49,394 nt of DNA from a virus, in the IMG/VR virus record IMGVR_UViG_3300046001_004180, positions 1 to 49,394 of that record; one strand, 5' to 3'. Below, one piece after another: positions 1 to 49,394 of the stretch (position 1 is its first letter; each line of letters opens with the position of its first letter). The position numbers and the translations under genes are program-made. The notes under the pieces are model-generated. The model saw only the letters and a list, made by a program, of their open reading frames with translations, searched no databases and was not told the origin of the DNA.

Positions 1-1974
1 CTCCTGTTAGTGATATTATAGCCACTAATGTACAAGGGGCTATTGAAGAGATTAATACCTTTATACAAGCTGGTACGGGGGCAGTTGCTAAAACATTACA
101 AGCAAAAAAATAGGGAGCGGGTCAGTGCTACTGATTATTCAACGTTACAACAAGCGATTAACACTGGAGCGAATGAACTTGATTTGTTGGGTGGAGCTTA
201 CACGGTAACGACAGCGCTTTTGTTTAATCAAGCTGGACAAAAGATTAAAAACGGCACATTGATTTTTGATGGAACAACAGCGGCGCGACTAGCGGAGATT
301 TCATCAAACAGGGTGACGTTTGAAAATGTAATATTTGACGGTAACGACAAACAGCCACGGTCTGGAATGGTTTATGTTGCGCCTGGTGTTGATCGTCCGG
401 TTTTCCGTGACTGTACATTTAAAAAAATCAAATGTACAGATTATGGTACAAATGTTTTAAATCAAACATACGCAATTGTAATTAGTCCTTATGCGGTTAC
501 AAATTTTGAAATTGTTGATTGTATTTTTAAAGACCTTATAAAGTATAACGACAACGCAACAAACGTACCGCCAGCACAATTGGAGGGGATCGGTTTTATA
601 GGAGGCGTTTGTTTTATGCCCGAGACAATGTTAGAGCCGACAGACGCGCAGCCGATACCAACGGCGGGAATTATAAGCGGTTGCACTTTTGAGAATATTC
701 AAACGATTTTGGCGGCATCCCTAAGCATTGGAGATCAAGCGACTTACAGTGATGCTGATGCAATCAGAACATACGGCAAAACGGGAGGCGCTGAAATTTT
801 AAATGTGCATGTTTCAAACTGTATTTTTCGCAATGTCTCCAAGCGTGCTTTTAAATTTAGAGCAGCGGGGGCGACGGCTAATGATTGCGAAATTTATGCA
901 GACGGGATGCAATACGGAATGATCGTGCCAATTGATGTTACGAGCAATAGTAAAATTCAGAATATCAGCATTTACGCATCATCATCCAAACCCGTGCAAT
1001 CAGGTGTGAATTGGTCTGTCGGCTCAGACGCTACACAGCGCGAAACACTGATAGATGGGTTATACATATCACATTGCATAGCTGGAGTCGGGTTTTTTTC
1101 TGATCCTACAAACCAGCCATTGAAAAATCTAGTGCTACGTAATGTTTTCATTAATCAGGCGTCGGCTTATGGTATCGTGCAGGCTTCACCGCTTCCGTCA
1201 ACCATGGAAAATATTTTCTTTGAGAATATACAAATTTATGGAAGTGGCAATAACTGTGCGGGTATAGAAACGAACGGGGGGCTAGATGCAAAGTCTGGTG
1301 TGACACTCGGCAATGCGTATATGCGAAATGGGTCTATTAAAATTGGCGGAGTGAATAACAATATTAAAGACGTAACAATTGAAATTGATTCAGCGAGCTA
1401 CGCCGGGGCATCGGCTGGCGAGTATTTATTCAGAGTCGGTGTAAATGGATATGGTGGTTTTCAAAACGTTGATAATATTTTTATTAATGCGTGGAACCTT
1501 GACACTGGATATTTAAGCGCATCTCGGCAAACATTGGGGGTTTTTATCGCTGACAACTCAATGTGGAGCAACATCCGTGTGAAAGTACCAGAGGGATTGA
1601 GCCAGACATATCCTCATATTGAGTTTTGGGGTAATAACTGGTGTTTAGATGGATATACCTACGATGGGGCAGGTATGACGTGGGTCGGTACTACTGTAGC
1701 TGCGGTGCGGTGGACTATGAAAAATTGCGTGCGACTAGGTTCGGGAGCTAGCACTAGCCAGTTTATATATACAAACAATGCTGGCACCGGACTTGGGGTT
1801 ATCGCTGACTTGACGGATTTTAGGCCAACAACAGCATCATCTATCACTATAAATAATGGTTTAGGTGTAGGGAGTCGATTTGTAGTTTCTAACGTTACAT
1901 CAAAAACAAGCAATGTAACGATTGTAGCAAATGGTGGGCTGGCAACGGTAACAAATGCGATTAACTTTCCTTGA
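1..1974 (+). CDS. Tail spike 2 (beta-helix receptor-binding protein), C-terminal part, frameshifted near its start
   Basis: This is the continuation of the gene that starts at 48858 on the circular map. Frame 3 of the first 110 bases matches the spike anchor and hits TAG at 111-113 after a run of seven A. The rest of the protein is in frame 1, from the Asn codon at 109 to the TGA at 1972-1974. With six A, as in the other copy, the full protein is 743 residues. After the anchor come about 600 residues rich in short Asn/Gly/Ile/Val beta-strand repeats, typical of right-handed beta-helix spikes that bind or cleave capsule or O-antigen. I see no named catalytic signature. GCG codons are more common than in neighbouring genes, suggesting an exchanged module. 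An ATG at 28 opens the local frame but gives an N-terminus unlike the anchor, so it is probably not a real start. Confidence 0.85.
104..110 (+). repeat. A7 homopolymer that shifts the frame of tail spike 2
   Basis: Seven A here against six at 49220-49225 in the other copy. With seven, the anchor frame ends QAKK-stop; with six it continues QAKNRER into the beta-helix. The paralogous spike at 46432 reads the same peptide with a broken A run. Confidence 0.9.
154..162 (+). repeat. Short direct repeat GCGATTAAC, left copy
   Basis: It encodes Ala-Ile-Asn at the anchor/beta-helix junction. It is identical to 1957-1965, and the distance of 1803 bases is a multiple of three. The copy at 49269-49277 shows the two repeats fused with everything between them lost. 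Confidence 0.95.
1957..1965 (+). repeat. Short direct repeat GCGATTAAC, right copy
   Basis: It encodes Ala-Ile-Asn just before the last two residues (Phe-Pro) of tail spike 2. Pairing with 154-162 explains the in-frame deletion allele at the right end of the window. Confidence 0.95.
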
Positions 1975-2033
1975 CCGAGCTTAAAAATCACGAACAGAAC
2001 TTACAGCAAGACAGAGGCGAAACAGGTTGTTGC

Positions 2034-2453
2034 ATGATCGTCTCTCTTATAAGACAATTTGAAGGTTGCAAATTAAAATCCTATAAATGTTCTGCTGGAA
2101 TATGGACAATAGGTTATGGGGAGACATTAGGGATTACTGCGGGGATGGTATGGACACTAGAAGAGGCTGAGAGGCATTTAAATAACAGGGTTGAATACTT
2201 CCTACGTAATGTTTATTTAAAATGCCCACAGCTCTTCCTAGAGACTCCTAACCGTGTTGCTGCATGTGTTTCCCTTGCCTATAATATAGGCTTGGGGGCA
2301 TTTGGGGCCTCTTCTGTTTGCAGATACACTAAACAACGTAATTATGAGAAGGCAGCTGCTTCTTTTCTCCTGTGGGATAAGGCAGGAGGAAAGAGGATTA
2401 AAGGGCTTACAATAAGGCGTATGGAAGAAAAGGAAATATATGAAACTGCCTAG
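2034..2453 (+). CDS. Endolysin, GH24 lysozyme (muramidase) with a Glu-Cys-Thr active site
   Basis: This enzyme hydrolyses the MurNAc-GlcNAc bond of peptidoglycan at lysis. The GH24 signature is clear: FEG, nine positions later Cys, six positions later Thr in WTIGYG. The E-(D/C)-T spacing is that of phage lysozymes, with Cys where T4 lysozyme has Asp, as in P1 Lyz. I chose ATG 2034 because it puts the catalytic Glu at residue 10, close to T4 lysozyme, with a weak AGG seven bases upstream. An in-frame TTG at 1971 would overlap the spike stop and add 21 polar residues. There is no signal or SAR segment, so release should depend on the holins at 48221 and 48388. It overlaps the next gene by 14 bases. 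Confidence 0.92.
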   Translation: MIVSLIRQFEGCKLKSYKCSAGIWTIGYGETLGITAGMVWTLEEAERHLNNRVEYFLRNVYLKCPQLFLETPNRVAACVSLAYNIGLGAFGASSVCRYTKQRNYEKAAASFLLWDKAGGKRIKGLTIRRMEEKEIYETA

Positions 2454-2943
2454 CAAGGAACAAATGCTAGATACTATGGGAAGACCTATTACACAGTCAT
2501 TATTCTTAGAGATTGGGTATACAGATACGTCTGTGTTCACTCTAAAGGAATATGATTACGAATATAAGGGCACAACCTACCCGTCATTAAAGAGGCTATA
2601 CCTCGAAGAGGAAGATCCTACGGAATATGATTTTGCTTGTAAATATCTATTAGGATGGAAGCATTGGCAACGTATCCTAGAGAACAAATCAGTACGTGCT
2701 CATATTGATGAATGGCGAGAGGAGCTAGAAGTTAAGCTTCGTTCTCGTGGTGTTAAGGCTCTGATGCTCTCAGCGGTCTCAGGTAACCACCAATCTGCTA
2801 AGTGGATGGCAGATAGAGGGTGGGATATTAGAGCAGCAGGGCGGCCTTCTAAAGCAGAGAAAGAAGGTGAGCTTAAAAAGCAAACCGCCATTATTGATGA
2901 ATACAAGGGTGATGTTCTTAGGTTATTTAAAGGGGGTAGTTGA
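2440..2943 (+). CDS. Terminase small subunit (probable)
   Basis: The protein has 167 residues. The C-terminal half holds a segment typical of phage small terminases: NHQSAKWMADRGWD followed by AGRPSKAEKE, then a charged helix. The small subunit binds viral DNA and presents it to the large subunit for packaging. The N-terminal part (EYDYEYKGTTYPSLKRLYLE) resembles a DNA-binding recognition region where an HTH would be expected, but I cannot verify it. The gene lies 2.4 kb upstream of the large subunit, separated by a structural gene, and overlaps the endolysin. Identification rests on the RGWD...GRPSK motif and position. Confidence 0.7.
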   Translation: MKLPSKEQMLDTMGRPITQSLFLEIGYTDTSVFTLKEYDYEYKGTTYPSLKRLYLEEEDPTEYDFACKYLLGWKHWQRILENKSVRAHIDEWREELEVKLRSRGVKALMLSAVSGNHQSAKWMADRGWDIRAAGRPSKAEKEGELKKQTAIIDEYKGDVLRLFKGGS

Positions 2944-4976
2944 TGTCGTTACACGTAATTGAAGAACTAAACAATCAAACATCCGCGGTTATTGGATCAG
3001 ATGGTAAGATACACACTGCAAGTTATGTATGGGATACGGGAAGCTTAACATGGGTTAGGGCAACAGCATCGGGAGGTGGTGGTGGAGCAGGGGATGCCTC
3101 AGCAGCTAACCAAGCAGCTCAGATTGATTTGGAAACGACAATCCGAGATGATACAGCAATAAACAAAGGGTATCTGAATACCCTAGCCTCAACAGTTGTA
3201 TCCTCCGCTATTACAACCACACCAGAAGGCACAGGAGCAGCTTACTGGCCAGGTTATAAAGGATCTCCTGATACGGGCAGGGCAGGGATAAATATTGACC
3301 CAGGTGGTGCGTTAGTAACACGAGGTGCTGTAACAACCGATGAAGGTACATTTCGAGCTAACTTTGCAAATACATCCTTAGCGGTTTCAATAGGCAGTGT
3401 GTCTGTATCTGGAACTTCTGTAACTGGTGTAGGTTTTACCGATACGTATGATGTAAGCTTAAGTGACTACTTTAAACTAGATGCTGATGGCGAATCTTCA
3501 TGGGTACAAGTAGAAGGCGTTGTAAGCGACACTCTTTTAATCTTGCAGGAGGCATATGTAGGAGGGACCAGCGGTGCTGCATCTAGGGCGCTTGTACGGC
3601 CTGTAACGGGTTCTGGTGGTGCTATTTCTGTTGCATCGGGTCAGCTCACTATGACCACAGGGACAACGAATGCAGCAATCACTCGGATTACAAGGAATGT
3701 AGACGTTGCTCCTATGGTATTCCGTTCGAGAGTTAGCTTCTCACAACGTATAGCTAATCAAACATTTAGGGTTGGTTTAACAGAGTCTTTCACTACATCT
3801 GACCGATGGTTTGCTCGTTTTAAACTAGACGGAACAGTAAATACAACAGCTGTTTGTGAATCGGGAAGAAACCCAACAATAACACCTAGTGCAGCCGAAA
3901 CAGAAAGCACAACAGTTATTCTTCCAGGAGGTGCAACAACCGCTGTTTTGAATGACTACCGTGTAGAGATGCTGACGGAGAAGGTAAACTTCTTTATTAA
4001 CAACATCCTTGTAGCAACCCATGTACGATCTATTCCAGCACAGCATGATGCGTTGGAAGCCTCTGTAACTTGTATTAATGGAACGGGTGCTGCATCAAGT
4101 ACAACGGTAGTTGTAGATTATGTGACAGGTAAGAATCATAATAAGTTAGAAATTGGTGTGATGTCGGATACAGAGCAAATTATTGCTGTTTCCCCTCCTA
4201 TGGCTTCCTATGTTTATGAGCCTACGGCTGGTGTTATTACCATCAATACGGATTTAATGATTATTGATTGTCTACAGCTCCGTTCTTTGTATATACACTG
4301 TACCTCTATGGGCACTACGGGTGTCGTTACTCCAGCTTGGTCTAATGACAACGTCAACTGGATAACCGCTACTCTTCTAACCGAAGCAGGTGCAGCAGCC
4401 ACTACGTTTAATGCTGCGGCCCTCCGTGCTGTTAATGTCCGTGCTAGATACTTCCGCCTACGTCTTACTACGGCTACTACAGCAGGGACCACTACGATAT
4501 ATGTTAACGGTTCTCAGACAGATGCAAGCCCAGTAATAACAACACAAGCTGTTAGTTTAGCCACCAACACACCGACTCTTGCTGCTGGCACTAACCGTGC
4601 TGCTTTTATTGCAGGGGCAGGTATCTGGTACGATGACAGTGCTGTCGTTCTTGCAGGTGCTGCTACTTTCACAGGAACCTCAAGGGACTTAACTGTTACA
4701 GCAACAGCTACAGCAATGGCTAATGCTGCTGCCTATAATAAAGAGGTGAGGGTTTCAGCAGAATCGGATCAATCAGGAACGCTGTGGGTGGAATACTCCA
4801 GAGATAACACAAACTGGAGGCGAATGAAATCATCTGTTACTGCGGCAATTACAGGTGGAGGTCAAATGGCAGAGGTTGTATTCCGACCTTCTTGGCGATA
4901 TATGCGAGTTGGTTTTACAAACGGAGCAACATTGCAAACTCGATTTACTATAAACTCATTATTAGTGGCAAATTAA
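2943..4976 (+). CDS. Large virion surface or fibre-like structural protein, unknown function
   Basis: This 677-residue protein is rich in Thr, Ala, Ser, Val and Gly. It has a flexible glycine run near residue 48 (GGGGGAG) and long stretches of predicted beta strand. Two segments look alike (WSNDNVNWITATL and YSRDNTNWRRMKS, each followed by RYFRLRLTT- or RYMRVGFTN-type strands), suggesting repeated beta-sandwich domains of the kind seen in phage fibres and appendages. No catalytic motif is visible. ATG 2943 is preferred over the in-frame TTG at 2940 because AAAGGGGG lies just upstream; it overlaps the stop of the previous gene. A decoration protein or accessory fibre is equally possible. Confidence 0.6.
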   Translation: MSLHVIEELNNQTSAVIGSDGKIHTASYVWDTGSLTWVRATASGGGGGAGDASAANQAAQIDLETTIRDDTAINKGYLNTLASTVVSSAITTTPEGTGAAYWPGYKGSPDTGRAGINIDPGGALVTRGAVTTDEGTFRANFANTSLAVSIGSVSVSGTSVTGVGFTDTYDVSLSDYFKLDADGESSWVQVEGVVSDTLLILQEAYVGGTSGAASRALVRPVTGSGGAISVASGQLTMTTGTTNAAITRITRNVDVAPMVFRSRVSFSQRIANQTFRVGLTESFTTSDRWFARFKLDGTVNTTAVCESGRNPTITPSAAETESTTVILPGGATTAVLNDYRVEMLTEKVNFFINNILVATHVRSIPAQHDALEASVTCINGTGAASSTTVVVDYVTGKNHNKLEIGVMSDTEQIIAVSPPMASYVYEPTAGVITINTDLMIIDCLQLRSLYIHCTSMGTTGVVTPAWSNDNVNWITATLLTEAGAAATTFNAAALRAVNVRARYFRLRLTTATTAGTTTIYVNGSQTDASPVITTQAVSLATNTPTLAAGTNRAAFIAGAGIWYDDSAVVLAGAATFTGTSRDLTVTATATAMANAAAYNKEVRVSAESDQSGTLWVEYSRDNTNWRRMKSSVTAAITGGGQMAEVVFRPSWRYMRVGFTNGATLQTRFTINSLLVAN

Positions 4977-8755: not shown

Positions 8756-8997
8756 CAATTAAAACATCTGTAACTAAAGGCTTAACAGAAGAGGAGGCTG
8801 CTGTAATTAGCAGCACTTTTGATGCTTCTGCTTTACTAAGGGAACGCTATATCAAGCTTCTTGAAGAGAAATCTAAGCTCTCAAGAGACTTATCAGTAAA
8901 TAAAGATTTGTACGTATCTCCTTCTTGGGCATACCTTCAAGCGGACGCTAGAGGCTATGAAAGGGCTATTTTAGAATTTATTTCACTTTTATCGTAA
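8752..8997 (+). CDS. Hypothetical protein, 81 aa
   Basis: A small, mostly helical protein (LRERYIKLLEEKSKLSRDL, YERAILEFISLL) whose ATG overlaps the portal stop (ATGA). It sits where other podoviruses carry a short virion or assembly factor. I do not recognise a family. Confidence 0.6.
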   Translation: MTIKTSVTKGLTEEEAAVISSTFDASALLRERYIKLLEEKSKLSRDLSVNKDLYVSPSWAYLQADARGYERAILEFISLLS

Positions 8998-9183
8998 AAT
9001 AGTGCTTCTTTTTGACAAAAAAAGGGGTATTAGGATATGTCAGCTTTATATAATAGAAATACAGACCTGAACGTAGTGAATGTCTGTCAATAATAAGTAA
9101 TACATTATATAGTTATTATATATAATAATATATATATATATAATAAATATATTATATATAAGTTTAATTAAATAGAAAGAATT
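8998..9183 (+). promoter_or_regulatory. Intergenic regulatory element upstream of scaffold and capsid (copy 1)
   Basis: A non-coding stretch with, in order, GCTTCTTTTTGAC, AAAAAAAGGGGTATTAG, a mini-hairpin (9061-9087), CAATAATAAGTAAT and about 75 bases of almost pure A/T. The same succession occurs at 42999-43125. A location before the most strongly expressed late genes suggests a promoter region, perhaps for the phage sigma factor. I cannot assign -35 and -10 boxes with confidence. Confidence 0.6.
9061..9087 (+). repeat. Mini-hairpin element A (GNA triloop, covarying stem)
   Basis: The outer stem is ACAGAC/GTCTGT. Inside it is CT-GA-AC-GTA-GT-GA-AT: a two-base inner stem AC/GT closed by a GTA triloop and flanked by GA/GA. 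Sister copies are at 43054, 43148, 46201 and 46272. Confidence 0.8.
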
Positions 9184-42963: not shown

Positions 42964-42998
42964 AACTAGCTCCTTAAATATTTATTTATAAAAACATG

Positions 42999-43125
42999 CT
43001 TCTTTTCCCTTAAAAAAGGGGTATTAGAGAGTATTTGCATTACGTATATATATACAGAGCTGAGTGAAACGAATCTCTGTCAATAATAAGTAAATCATAT
43101 ATATATATATATATATATACTCTAT
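42999..43125. promoter_or_regulatory. Intergenic regulatory element (copy 2) upstream of the amidoligase operon
   Basis: On the + strand it repeats the order seen at 8998-9183: GCTTCTTTT, AAAAAAGGGGTATTAG, mini-hairpin B (43054-43080), CAATAATAAGTAAAT and an AT dinucleotide run. Here the downstream operon lies on the - strand, so the element points away from it, unlike copy 1. Confidence 0.6.
43054..43080 (+). repeat. Mini-hairpin element B
   Basis: Outer stem ACAGAG/CTCTGT (C-G of copy A swapped to G-C), inner GA-GT-GAA-AC-GA. Both stems change in a compensating way relative to copy A. Confidence 0.8.
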
Positions 43126-43141
43126 AACATACGTTACTAGA

Positions 43142-45047: not shown

Positions 45048-45132
45048 CGACAATAAACATTGTCAATTATATCTTGCTCAATGATGAACAAAAGCCTTAT
45101 AGGTAATTCAATTTAAATTTTTAAAGAACATC

Positions 45133-45158
45133 CAGATAGAATATTATTATAGGTATTT
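45133..45158. repeat. 26-base inverted repeat, left arm
   Basis: The arm starts CAGATAGAATATTATTATAG and is the perfect reverse complement of 45501-45526. The two arms enclose one complete gene. AATTTTTAAAGA occurs close outside both arms (45116-45127 and 45527-45538). Confidence 0.95.
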
Positions 45159-45500: not shown

Positions 45501-45526
45501 AAATACCTATAATAATATTCTATCTG
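45501..45526. repeat. 26-base inverted repeat, right arm
   Basis: Reverse complement of 45133-45158 with no mismatch. Read on the - strand it contains TATTATAGG about 40 bases before the gene start and could double as a promoter -10 region. Confidence 0.95.
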
Positions 45527-45592
45527 AATTTTTAAAGAGGGATACAAACTGAATAGAACGCTATGCCTATCCATCCCTTACAACATGCCTAC

Positions 45593-46431: not shown

Positions 46432-48165
46432 ATGGCTAAAGTGCCTTTAACAGATTTAGTTAATACATATGATGTAACAGCGATTAATGCTAACTTCGCT
46501 AAGATTGAAGCAGCATTTGAAGATGAGGTGTTATTTCGAGATAACCCAATAGGTGCTAATACAATTGAGAGTGATATTGATTTAAATGGGAAGAAGTTAT
46601 ACAATCTTCCAGCCCCTACCTTAAACAGTCAAGCAGCTAGGTTACAGGATGTACAGAATGCTATCGCTGGTGGTGATGCCAATCTCATTACGTTCACACA
46701 AGCTGGCACTGGAGCTGTTGTTAGGACATTGCAAGCTAAGAATAGGGATACTGTAAGTGTTAAGGATTTTGGAGCTGTTGGTGATGGGGTAGCAAATGAT
46801 ACTGTTTCACTCCAAGCTGCCTCTACCGCGGCATTGGCGCTTGGTAAATCCTTACACATCCCATCCGGCACTTATCTCTACTCTTCGTGGACAGGGCTGG
46901 TGGGCAGTGGCATAACTATTTTTGGTGATGGATCAAGTAATACCATTCTAAAATACACAGGAATAGGTGACGCACTTGTTTTGGGTACACCTGCCACATT
47001 TTCACAAGGTGTAAATATCTCTGGTTTCACGGTAGAGGGGAATTCAAACGTAAATAGAATTATTGTTGCTACGGCTCTTGCACGCTGCCAATGGACGGAC
47101 ATTAACGTCAGGGAGGCTAAGTCGGCATCAGGCATTGGGTTTGTTTTTCAGGGTTGCATGCTTAATCGGTTTGATTCGCTAGTTTGTTCGACCGACCGCC
47201 AAGCAATGATAAATCCTCCCTATGAAGCGTTTAATATTGAGTCCCTTTCACCGCATGGGAACTCAGCAAATAACACATTCACTAACCTATACGCCGAAGG
47301 TTCTGGTCGGGTTGCGTCAACTATTGAGGTTGGGTTACGCATTTCTGGAGGAACCCAGAATGTATTTATTGGCGGTTCCCCTGAAAGCTGCGGAACCTGG
47401 GGGGTGTTGATTGCAGCTAGTTCTGGCAATAACACATTTATAGGTGTTGGCATGGAGAATCTGGACGCTACGGGTGGGGATTGCGCAGACGCGGGTGTAT
47501 CAACCAGATATATAAACTGCTACTCGTCACACAAATTTATTCTGCAAGGCCGATCATGTGCTGTCGAGGGCGGGTACTATGAACGCATACAGATTGACTC
47601 ACTCTCATATCGAAACTCTGTATCTGACGTTGTTGTAAATCAATGGGCTACGGGTGCTGGCGGGTTATTTGACAGTGGCATCGGAACTCAAACTAAGAAT
47701 ATCTATGACGCTGATTTGTCGGCATTTATTAGTGAGGTATATCCTAGGTTTCTCGCTTATGCACCATCGGTCGCCGCAAACCAGACGGGTGCAGGAGCAC
47801 AAGCAACAATAGGATTTATTGAGGTTTTTGACGATAACAATAACTTTGCAGGCAATACATTCACAGCGCCGATAACAGGCCGTTACCAATTGAACGCATC
47901 AGTTTCGCTCGATGCTTTATCCACTGCCGCAACTTTGACAACGATTCGTATTATTACAAGCAACCGTACATATGTTCAGCAAAAAGGTGTCAACCCGAAA
48001 GCAGGAGGGTTGCAAGATGCCATATCAATAGCGGTGGTTGCTGATATGGATGCTGGAGATACAGCAACAGTGACTATTCAAGTTGAAGGGATGGCTGGAA
48101 ACACTGTTTCAGTCATCGGGAATGGCACAACTATGTGGACAACATTTTCTGGTAGTCTCGGATAG
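46432..48165 (+). CDS. Tail spike 1: anchor, pectate-lyase-like beta-helix and C1q-like C-terminal domain
   Basis: A 577-residue spike. Residues 1-100 are the particle anchor, similar to the start of tail spike 2 (LYNLPAPTLNSQAARLQDVQ and QAGTGAVVRTLQAKNR). VSVKDFGAVGDGVANDTVSL is the entry motif of pectate-lyase-type right-handed beta-helix depolymerases. The last 130 residues (ATIGFIEVFDDNNNFAGNTF, TAPITGRYQLNASVSL) form a C1q/TNF-like jelly roll, used for trimerisation or binding. It probably degrades capsule or O-antigen. AAGGA precedes the ATG by seven bases. Codon style changes after the anchor, indicating module exchange. Confidence 0.9.
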   Translation: MAKVPLTDLVNTYDVTAINANFAKIEAAFEDEVLFRDNPIGANTIESDIDLNGKKLYNLPAPTLNSQAARLQDVQNAIAGGDANLITFTQAGTGAVVRTLQAKNRDTVSVKDFGAVGDGVANDTVSLQAASTAALALGKSLHIPSGTYLYSSWTGLVGSGITIFGDGSSNTILKYTGIGDALVLGTPATFSQGVNISGFTVEGNSNVNRIIVATALARCQWTDINVREAKSASGIGFVFQGCMLNRFDSLVCSTDRQAMINPPYEAFNIESLSPHGNSANNTFTNLYAEGSGRVASTIEVGLRISGGTQNVFIGGSPESCGTWGVLIAASSGNNTFIGVGMENLDATGGDCADAGVSTRYINCYSSHKFILQGRSCAVEGGYYERIQIDSLSYRNSVSDVVVNQWATGAGGLFDSGIGTQTKNIYDADLSAFISEVYPRFLAYAPSVAANQTGAGAQATIGFIEVFDDNNNFAGNTFTAPITGRYQLNASVSLDALSTAATLTTIRIITSNRTYVQQKGVNPKAGGLQDAISIAVVADMDAGDTATVTIQVEGMAGNTVSVIGNGTTMWTTFSGSLG

Positions 48166-48391: not shown

Positions 48392-48861
48392 TTGAAAGCA
48401 TTGCCCTGGTAGGAGGAGGGCTTTTACGTCTTCTTCCTGAACTCCTCTCCTTCTTTAATAAGAAGACAGATAATAAGCATGAGCTAGAAATGCTAGAGAA
48501 ACAATTCCAGCTAGAACAATCTCGTAATGCTGCACAGATGGAACAGGTTATACAAGTTCAGGAAGGAGCTACAGATGTTGCCCTTACTAACGCGTACAAG
48601 GAAGCTCTAAGAGGGCAAATGCAGAAGGTGGGGGTTAAGTGGGTTGATGCGTTAAACTTTGCTGTACGTCCTATATATGCTTATACGGCATTGGTTTTGT
48701 ATTACGCGTTCAAGGCCTCTCTGTTCGTAGTGGCTATGCAGCAATCTGGTGGGGTATGGGAGAAGGTGTTGCTATGCTACACACCAGAAGACTTCGCTCT
48801 TCTGTCAGGGATTACGTCATTCTACTTCGTAGGTCGTGTTATAGATAAAGGAAACAAATGA
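48388..48861 (+). CDS. Holin-like membrane protein (3TM-holin type), 157 aa
   Basis: An N-terminal hydrophobic helix (IALVGGGLLRLLPELLSFF) is followed by a long Gln/Glu helix (KHELEMLEKQFQLEQSRNAA). Then comes VDALNFAVRPIYAYTALVLYYAF, the family-type RP motif within a membrane segment, and a final membrane segment (FALLSGITSFYFVGRVI). This matches the phage 3TM holin group. It lies next to the 56-residue protein and one gene before the endolysin on the circular map, forming a lysis cassette with spike 2 in between. Confidence 0.72.
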   Translation: MIESIALVGGGLLRLLPELLSFFNKKTDNKHELEMLEKQFQLEQSRNAAQMEQVIQVQEGATDVALTNAYKEALRGQMQKVGVKWVDALNFAVRPIYAYTALVLYYAFKASLFVVAMQQSGGVWEKVLLCYTPEDFALLSGITSFYFVGRVIDKGNK

Positions 48862-49286
48862 GTAAGATTGTATTAGGGAATATAAGTGGTGGACATAATC
48901 TCCAGAAGATTAACGACAACTTCGATAAGATTGAAGCTGAGTTTACTAATAAAGTGGTATATCGAGATGAGACAGGTAGCCTTTCTGTTGCCCTAGATGC
49001 TAACGGTCAGCAAATATATAACCTCCCTGCACCCACTACACTAAACTCAGCAGCACGTCAGCAGGACGTATTAGATGCTGTTGCAGGGGCTAGGACAGCT
49101 GCTCTTACCTCGTTCGCTCCTGTTAGTGATATTATAGCCACTAATGTACAAGGGGCTATTGAAGAGATTAATACCTTTATACAAGCTGGTACGGGGGCAG
49201 TTGCTAAAACATTACAAGCAAAAAATAGGGAGCGGGTCAGTGCTACTGATTATTCAACGTTACAACAAGCGATTAACTTTCCTTGA
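48858..49286 (+). CDS. Tail spike 2, N-terminal anchor (deletion allele ends after 142 aa)
   Basis: The start overlaps the holin-like gene; AAAGGAAACAA precedes the ATG. The anchor matches that of tail spike 1 (HNLQKINDNFDKIEAEF, IYNLPAPTTLNSAARQQDVL, FIQAGTGAVAKTLQAKNRER). In this copy the A tract has six A and the beta-helix of about 600 residues is missing: the anchor joins directly to the last two codons, ending AINFP. Joining this start to the full-length copy at 1-1974 gives a 743-residue spike. The 142-residue stub could still occupy the attachment site. Confidence 0.88.
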   Translation: MSKIVLGNISGGHNLQKINDNFDKIEAEFTNKVVYRDETGSLSVALDANGQQIYNLPAPTTLNSAARQQDVLDAVAGARTAALTSFAPVSDIIATNVQGAIEEINTFIQAGTGAVAKTLQAKNRERVSATDYSTLQQAINFP

Positions 49287-49394
49287 CCGAGCTTAAAAAT
49301 CACGAACAGAACTTACAGCAAGACAGAGGCGAAACAGGTTGTTGCATGATCGTCTCTCTTATAAGACAATTTGAAGGTTGCAAATTAAAATCCT
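49117..49394 (+). repeat. Terminal overlap with the window start
   Basis: It matches 1-162 and then 1966-2082 by eye, except for one A fewer in the homopolymer and the absence of 1803 bases. Shows that the molecule is circularly permuted or terminally redundant and that two alleles were captured. The tail end covers the beginning of the endolysin gene. Confidence 0.93.

Follow-up and report, generated by a model that had tools for sequence, protein, structure and literature searches.

Overlapping ends of a Zobellviridae-like phage contig differ by an in-frame deletion of a tail-spike domain

The two ends of the IMG/VR record IMGVR_UViG_3300046001_004180 repeat one another, except that the copy at the right end lacks 1803 bp of a tail-spike gene. 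The question raised by this locus is whether the difference records two alleles present together in one phage population or an artefact of assembly. The DNA analysed, called the window below, was the entire record of 49,394 bp. The features on which the argument depends are listed here; all are on the plus strand.

1 to 113, plus strand: left (full-length) copy of spike 2, 3' portion of its anchor in frame 3, with the TAG at 111-113 arising from the A7 run
104 to 110, plus strand: A7 run (A6 in the right copy), a one-base frameshift between anchor and helix
154 to 162, plus strand: upstream GCGATTAAC repeat, codons A-I-N
163 to 1956, plus strand: spike domain absent in the right copy (1803 bp counting one repeat copy), 64% identity to the spike of locus L090
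1957 to 1965, plus strand: downstream GCGATTAAC repeat, codons A-I-N of the conserved C-terminus NAINFP
1966 to 1974, plus strand: final spike-2 codons and stop (F-P-stop), present in both copies
1971 to 2453, plus strand: endolysin (phage lysozyme), intact, directly downstream of spike 2
46432 to 48165, plus strand: spike 1, 577 aa, intact, with homologous anchor and pectate-lyase-like helix (PF12708)
48858 to 49286, plus strand: spike-2 deletion allele, a 142-aa anchor stub (MSKIVLGN...STLQQAINFP, stop), placed in the anchor family by profile
49117 to 49394, plus strand: stretch overlapping the left end, identical to 1957-2082 over its final 126 bases

As judged from its genes, the phage appears to be a Zobellviridae-like podovirus, with a genome of roughly 49 kb and two tail spikes whose anchors are paralogous. 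Among named phage records, the closest had portals 60-66% identical to its own over 99%, and several of these records are classified as Zobellviridae; portal and terminase together were closest to members of that family (podoviruses related to PA11, CW02, CVT22, ICP2, and GP100), and the gene order (spike, lysis, phrog_8035 gene, terminase, portal) is that of the Zobellviridae relatives. Megablast of positions 28000-49394 against named phages gave no match. A 678-aa ORF (2940-4976) between the phrog_8035 gene and the terminase matched F5/8 type C weakly and may encode another protein of the virion or one for host binding. An intergenic element of about 130 bp is present in two copies that are 77% identical (8990-9180 and 42980-43140), one in the structural arm and the other in the oppositely transcribed arm; it carries the block CTGTCAATAATAAGTAA and a long AT tract besides a hairpin around GCTTCTTTT...AAAAAAGGGGTATTAG, had no Rfam match, and possibly represents a pair of regulatory or replication elements. 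The gene-poor part of the early region also contains an inverted repeat of about 30 bp (45127-45158 and 45501-45532) with arms about 340 bp apart.

Alignment of the two ends base by base bore out the first-pass annotation, which had described the right end as the left end minus 1803 bases between two repeats. Positions 49117-49277 matched 1-162 with one gap and no mismatch, and 49269-49394 matched 1957-2082 at 126 of 126 bases. The segment missing from the right copy is 1803 bp, or 601 codons, between the GCGATTAAC sequences at 154-162 and 1957-1965; a third copy stands at 49269-49277, and in the frame used each of the three falls on codon boundaries and encodes A-I-N. That the loss of 601 codons keeps the frame and the stop codon and leaves a stub of 142 residues, as had also been claimed, agrees with the ORF at 48858-49286. 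The endolysin ORF begins within the spike-2 stop region, its probable ATG being at 2035. Modelling of the stub fold gave nothing interpretable beyond helices, and a scan with the stub sequence found no close relative.

The repeats have their source in A-I-N codons of the first helix cap and of the conserved C-terminus. There are 14 direct repeats of at least 9 bp in the spike-2 gene, where about 10 are expected, and 3 that span at least 1500 bp, against 0.6 expected. Two of these three long-span repeats lie in frame, so little can be made of the preserved reading frame; without selection the probability of an in-frame deletion is one in three or better, and the outcome is thus weak evidence of selection. 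The 9-bp repeat at the junction extends into an imperfect 24-bp match, as is usual where slippage has caused a deletion. The reverse event, in which the helix would have been inserted and 9 bp of target duplicated, was considered and rejected: the spike of L090 has the same helix and the same NAINFP, and the 1803 bp encode no transposase.

The first-pass annotation had set a full gene against a stub. The stub is as described; the left copy, however, proved to be frameshifted by the A7 run, which had gone unnoticed. Its anchor frame reads GCA AAA AAA TAG and ends after 123 aa with the helix in another frame, and the 28-1974 ORF returned by the ORF finder begins in the wrong frame. Since the left copy is frameshifted by A7 and the right copy has lost the helix, neither encodes a working spike 2 as assembled, and the phage as assembled would make only the short particle-binding stub of spike 2. 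The site homologous to AAA AAT of the right copy reads AAG AAT in spike 1, which indicates that A6 is the ancestral phase. The extra A, within 110 bp of the contig end, may be an error of the contig tip; the full allele would then be intact. The slippery heptamer A AAA AAA, immediately before the TAG in the left copy, occurs only in the A7 copy. Programmed −1 frameshifting at A7 was rejected, as the downstream RNA folded no better than shuffled sequences (z +0.85, folding without pseudoknots). That the population keeps a stock of armed, silent, and stub alleles as a switch, with the A6/A7 run turning the helix on and off, the heptamer now and then permitting a −1 shift that yields the full-length protein, and repeat slippage excising the helix in frame, strikes us as very improbable.

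The state of the gene before the deletion can be read from the spike of L090, which belongs to another phage type. This 755-aa protein has a different, unrelated anchor and a C-terminal end of GGLATVVNAINFP followed by the stop; it shows 64% identity to the spike-2 helix over 623 residues and shares its end, NAINFP and stop. As L090 carries the same helix and the same end, the full-length form is old and the stub derived. Differences between the two fall at codon positions 1, 2, and 3 in numbers of 178, 111, and 405, from which it follows that the helix has been maintained as a protein under purifying selection. The combination in L090 (253-2520) of the same helix and C-terminus with an unrelated anchor is also a case of whole-spike module exchange between phage groups. 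Compared with L090, 11 residues (NAVGNGVADDT) immediately ahead of the first helix cap are absent from the spike-2 copy in the window.

The helix domain had no sequence match in Pfam, PHROG, or PDB, and the patterns used found no relatives of it in host genomes of the GTDB set. A structure model of low confidence (pLDDT 59, two-sequence alignment) showed a series of repeated strands preceded by a single cap helix (residues 13-22), and it is at this helix that the deletion cuts. The best fold matches of this model, with low TM-scores, were PL6 alginate lyases, which are beta-helices, and phage tailspikes. The model supports, but does not prove, that the missing domain is a beta-helical spike; from its likely fold and its position, spike 2 is presumed to bind or cut a surface polysaccharide.

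The part of spike 2 that remains belongs to a family of anchors, each an N-terminal domain of about 85 aa with the pattern MxKIxL...INxNFxxIE...VLYRDNPxGEPN...LDxNG, which both the stub and spike 1 fit. Iterated profile search collected 35 genes of this family, the stub and spike 1 among them with E about 1e-28, and the anchors of spikes 1 and 2 are 40% identical over 135 aa. Family members in relatives range in length from 110 to 991 aa; those in Zobellviridae relatives include short ones of 110, 198, 199, 214, 217, 243, and 262 aa. As such short members exist, for example in PQ867841, the family tolerates genes reduced to the anchor and perhaps even profits from them. The suggestion that the stub serves to keep the spike complex intact is unneeded, for spike 1 has its own homologous anchor and so does not obviously hang on spike 2. 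In the Zobellviridae phage GP100, halo-forming activity and a pectate-lyase spike have been described (PMC10715155).

How the contig came to end where it does bears on whether the deletion and the full-length copy were both present in the sample. In a simulated assembly graph with k=127, the deletion and full alleles rejoined at a node spanning 49269-49395. The contig stop at 49394 is the last word private to the deletion path, one base short of this node, and the right end thus reaches 126 bp into the shared downstream sequence. That the contig ends at the k=127 rejoining point, with 127 being the simulated value, suggests that both paths were in the graph. The left contig end is not on a k-mer boundary. 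For comparison of ends, relatives were fetched by their portal genes. Some relatives have exactly matching contig ends and so form circles; the overlaps measure 127, 127, 123, and 55 bp, sizes that resemble the word lengths of short-read assemblers. In G003 and G005 the end overlaps were imperfect, like that of the analysed contig. Of the noncircular relatives, 4 of 6 ended within 1.5 kb of a spike gene (P about 0.02 on the assumption that 20% of the genome lies that close, for a small sample and a post hoc comparison), as if spike variation broke phage assemblies. Zobellviridae-like IMG/VR contigs that end in or next to spike genes are G002, G005, G008, and G009 (loci L012, L034, L070, and L057, respectively). 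Exact-pattern scans with the anchor border and with the downstream junction, over viral contigs in a collection that may omit near-identical records, found no further contig of the same species showing either junction.

These observations have to be weighed against a chimera made during library amplification, by template switching between short repeats in PCR or multiple displacement, and later built into one end of the contig, in a population that was uniformly full length and with A7 as a tip error. The junction does lie on a short direct repeat, as is typical of such chimeras, both anomalies are at contig tips, and the deletion was absent from the independent contigs scanned. A rare chimera, however, would normally be dropped as a low-coverage path, whereas this junction is part of an otherwise intact 49-kb contig ending beside the point where the k=127 paths rejoin, and its outcome is precisely in frame; we hold the chimera to be unlikely, though not so unlikely as to be set aside lightly. 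Both forms might instead be real, inactive alleles in which the deletion and A7 arose separately under selection against making spike 2, its helix being costly or useless on the current host. In favour of this are the anchor-only proteins of 142 and 123 aa given by the two assembled copies and a remaining helix frame that is intact over 623 residues, because of which the frameshift would be recent; but a single homopolymer base within 110 bp of a contig end is a typical assembly error, and we regard a pair of inactive alleles as quite improbable.

The overlap could also reflect a direct terminal repeat physically present in virion DNA, with copies that differ, an idea to which we give hardly any credence. 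Both copies of a terminal repeat derive from a single concatemer junction, and a stable 1.8-kb difference between them is not expected; relatives close elsewhere, with overlaps that equal assembly word lengths. Some relatives' GenBank records do begin similarly far upstream of the portal, at about 4.4 kb, but the portal here is 7 kb from the end.

The reading we consider probable, with some reserve, is that slippage made a spike-2-null allele with spike 1 intact and that the sampled population contained both alleles. In part of that population the entire presumed beta-helix of spike 2 would have been lost in frame through slippage or illegitimate recombination between the two 9-bp repeats, which lie within the imperfect 24-bp repeat; either process would suffice for the loss. 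The product would be the anchor-only protein of 142 aa beside an intact spike 1; the other assembled copy would keep the helix and, through the A6-to-A7 frameshift, yield only the 123-aa anchor. We infer that phage with the deletion would lose recognition of the polysaccharide targeted by spike 2 and grow on hosts served by spike 1. What survives of the first-pass interpretation is the in-frame loss of the helix, the retention of anchor and stop, and the fork-like contig ends; the contrast of an armed with a disarmed allele gives way to two disarmed forms, unless the extra A is a tip error, and a role in keeping a complex together need not be assumed.

Loss of one of two spikes has parallels. 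Klebsiella viruses of the KP32 and KP34 groups include forms with 'first RBP truncated' or 'second RBP truncated' (Latka et al. 2019, PMC6872550); the truncated RBP was proposed to serve as a docking site, and such loss of the enzymatic domain to occur when one host serotype dominates (PMC6872550). Those phages resemble the present one in having two RBP genes, one without the enzymatic domain and with the N-terminal attachment part kept. There, however, the differences are between phages and the arrangement is an anchor plus a branch, whereas here the two forms are in one assembly of a Zobellviridae-like phage, the exact junction is visible, and spikes 1 and 2 are both on homologous (paralogous) anchors. 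Anchor-branch attachment goes through a T4 gp10-like domain or a conserved peptide; Pfam and PHROGs detected no such domain here. G7C-like phages, as cited in PMC6872550, have a gp66 orthologue without the enzymatic domain; the likeness, so far as that citation describes them, is a particle-binding part kept without its enzymatic part, and the difference is that they keep T4 gp10-like branching domains for the second spike, of which none was detected in the stub.

Closer in family is T4S1-k141_502596 (PQ867841, Zobellviridae), in which a 110-aa anchor-only protein (ORF65) and a 533-aa spike (ORF69) with homologous anchors are encoded around the lysis genes; there the first gene is the short one, a longer copy of it is not known, and it differs in its last 24 residues. 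A KP32 phage from which RBP2 had been removed by engineering was viable and grew on the RBP1 host only (PMC13082707). It shows that losing one of two spikes can leave a viable virion with a narrower host range, but it was engineered and comes from another family with another anchor system. The literature searched contained no direct precedent for spontaneous deletion of a depolymerase domain within a population, a result limited by the search and no proof of novelty. The finding is a further instance of the known loss of one of two spikes, seen within one assembly.

Truncated spikes that retain their anchors have so far been inferred by comparing different phages. The contig ends also carry a warning, that spike genes break phage assemblies and that public contigs may combine spike alleles of different strains. 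If the alleles coexist, this record catches the loss of a spike in progress, by a short-repeat deletion that keeps anchor, frame, and stop, and host-range contraction by spike shedding would become testable in one sample.
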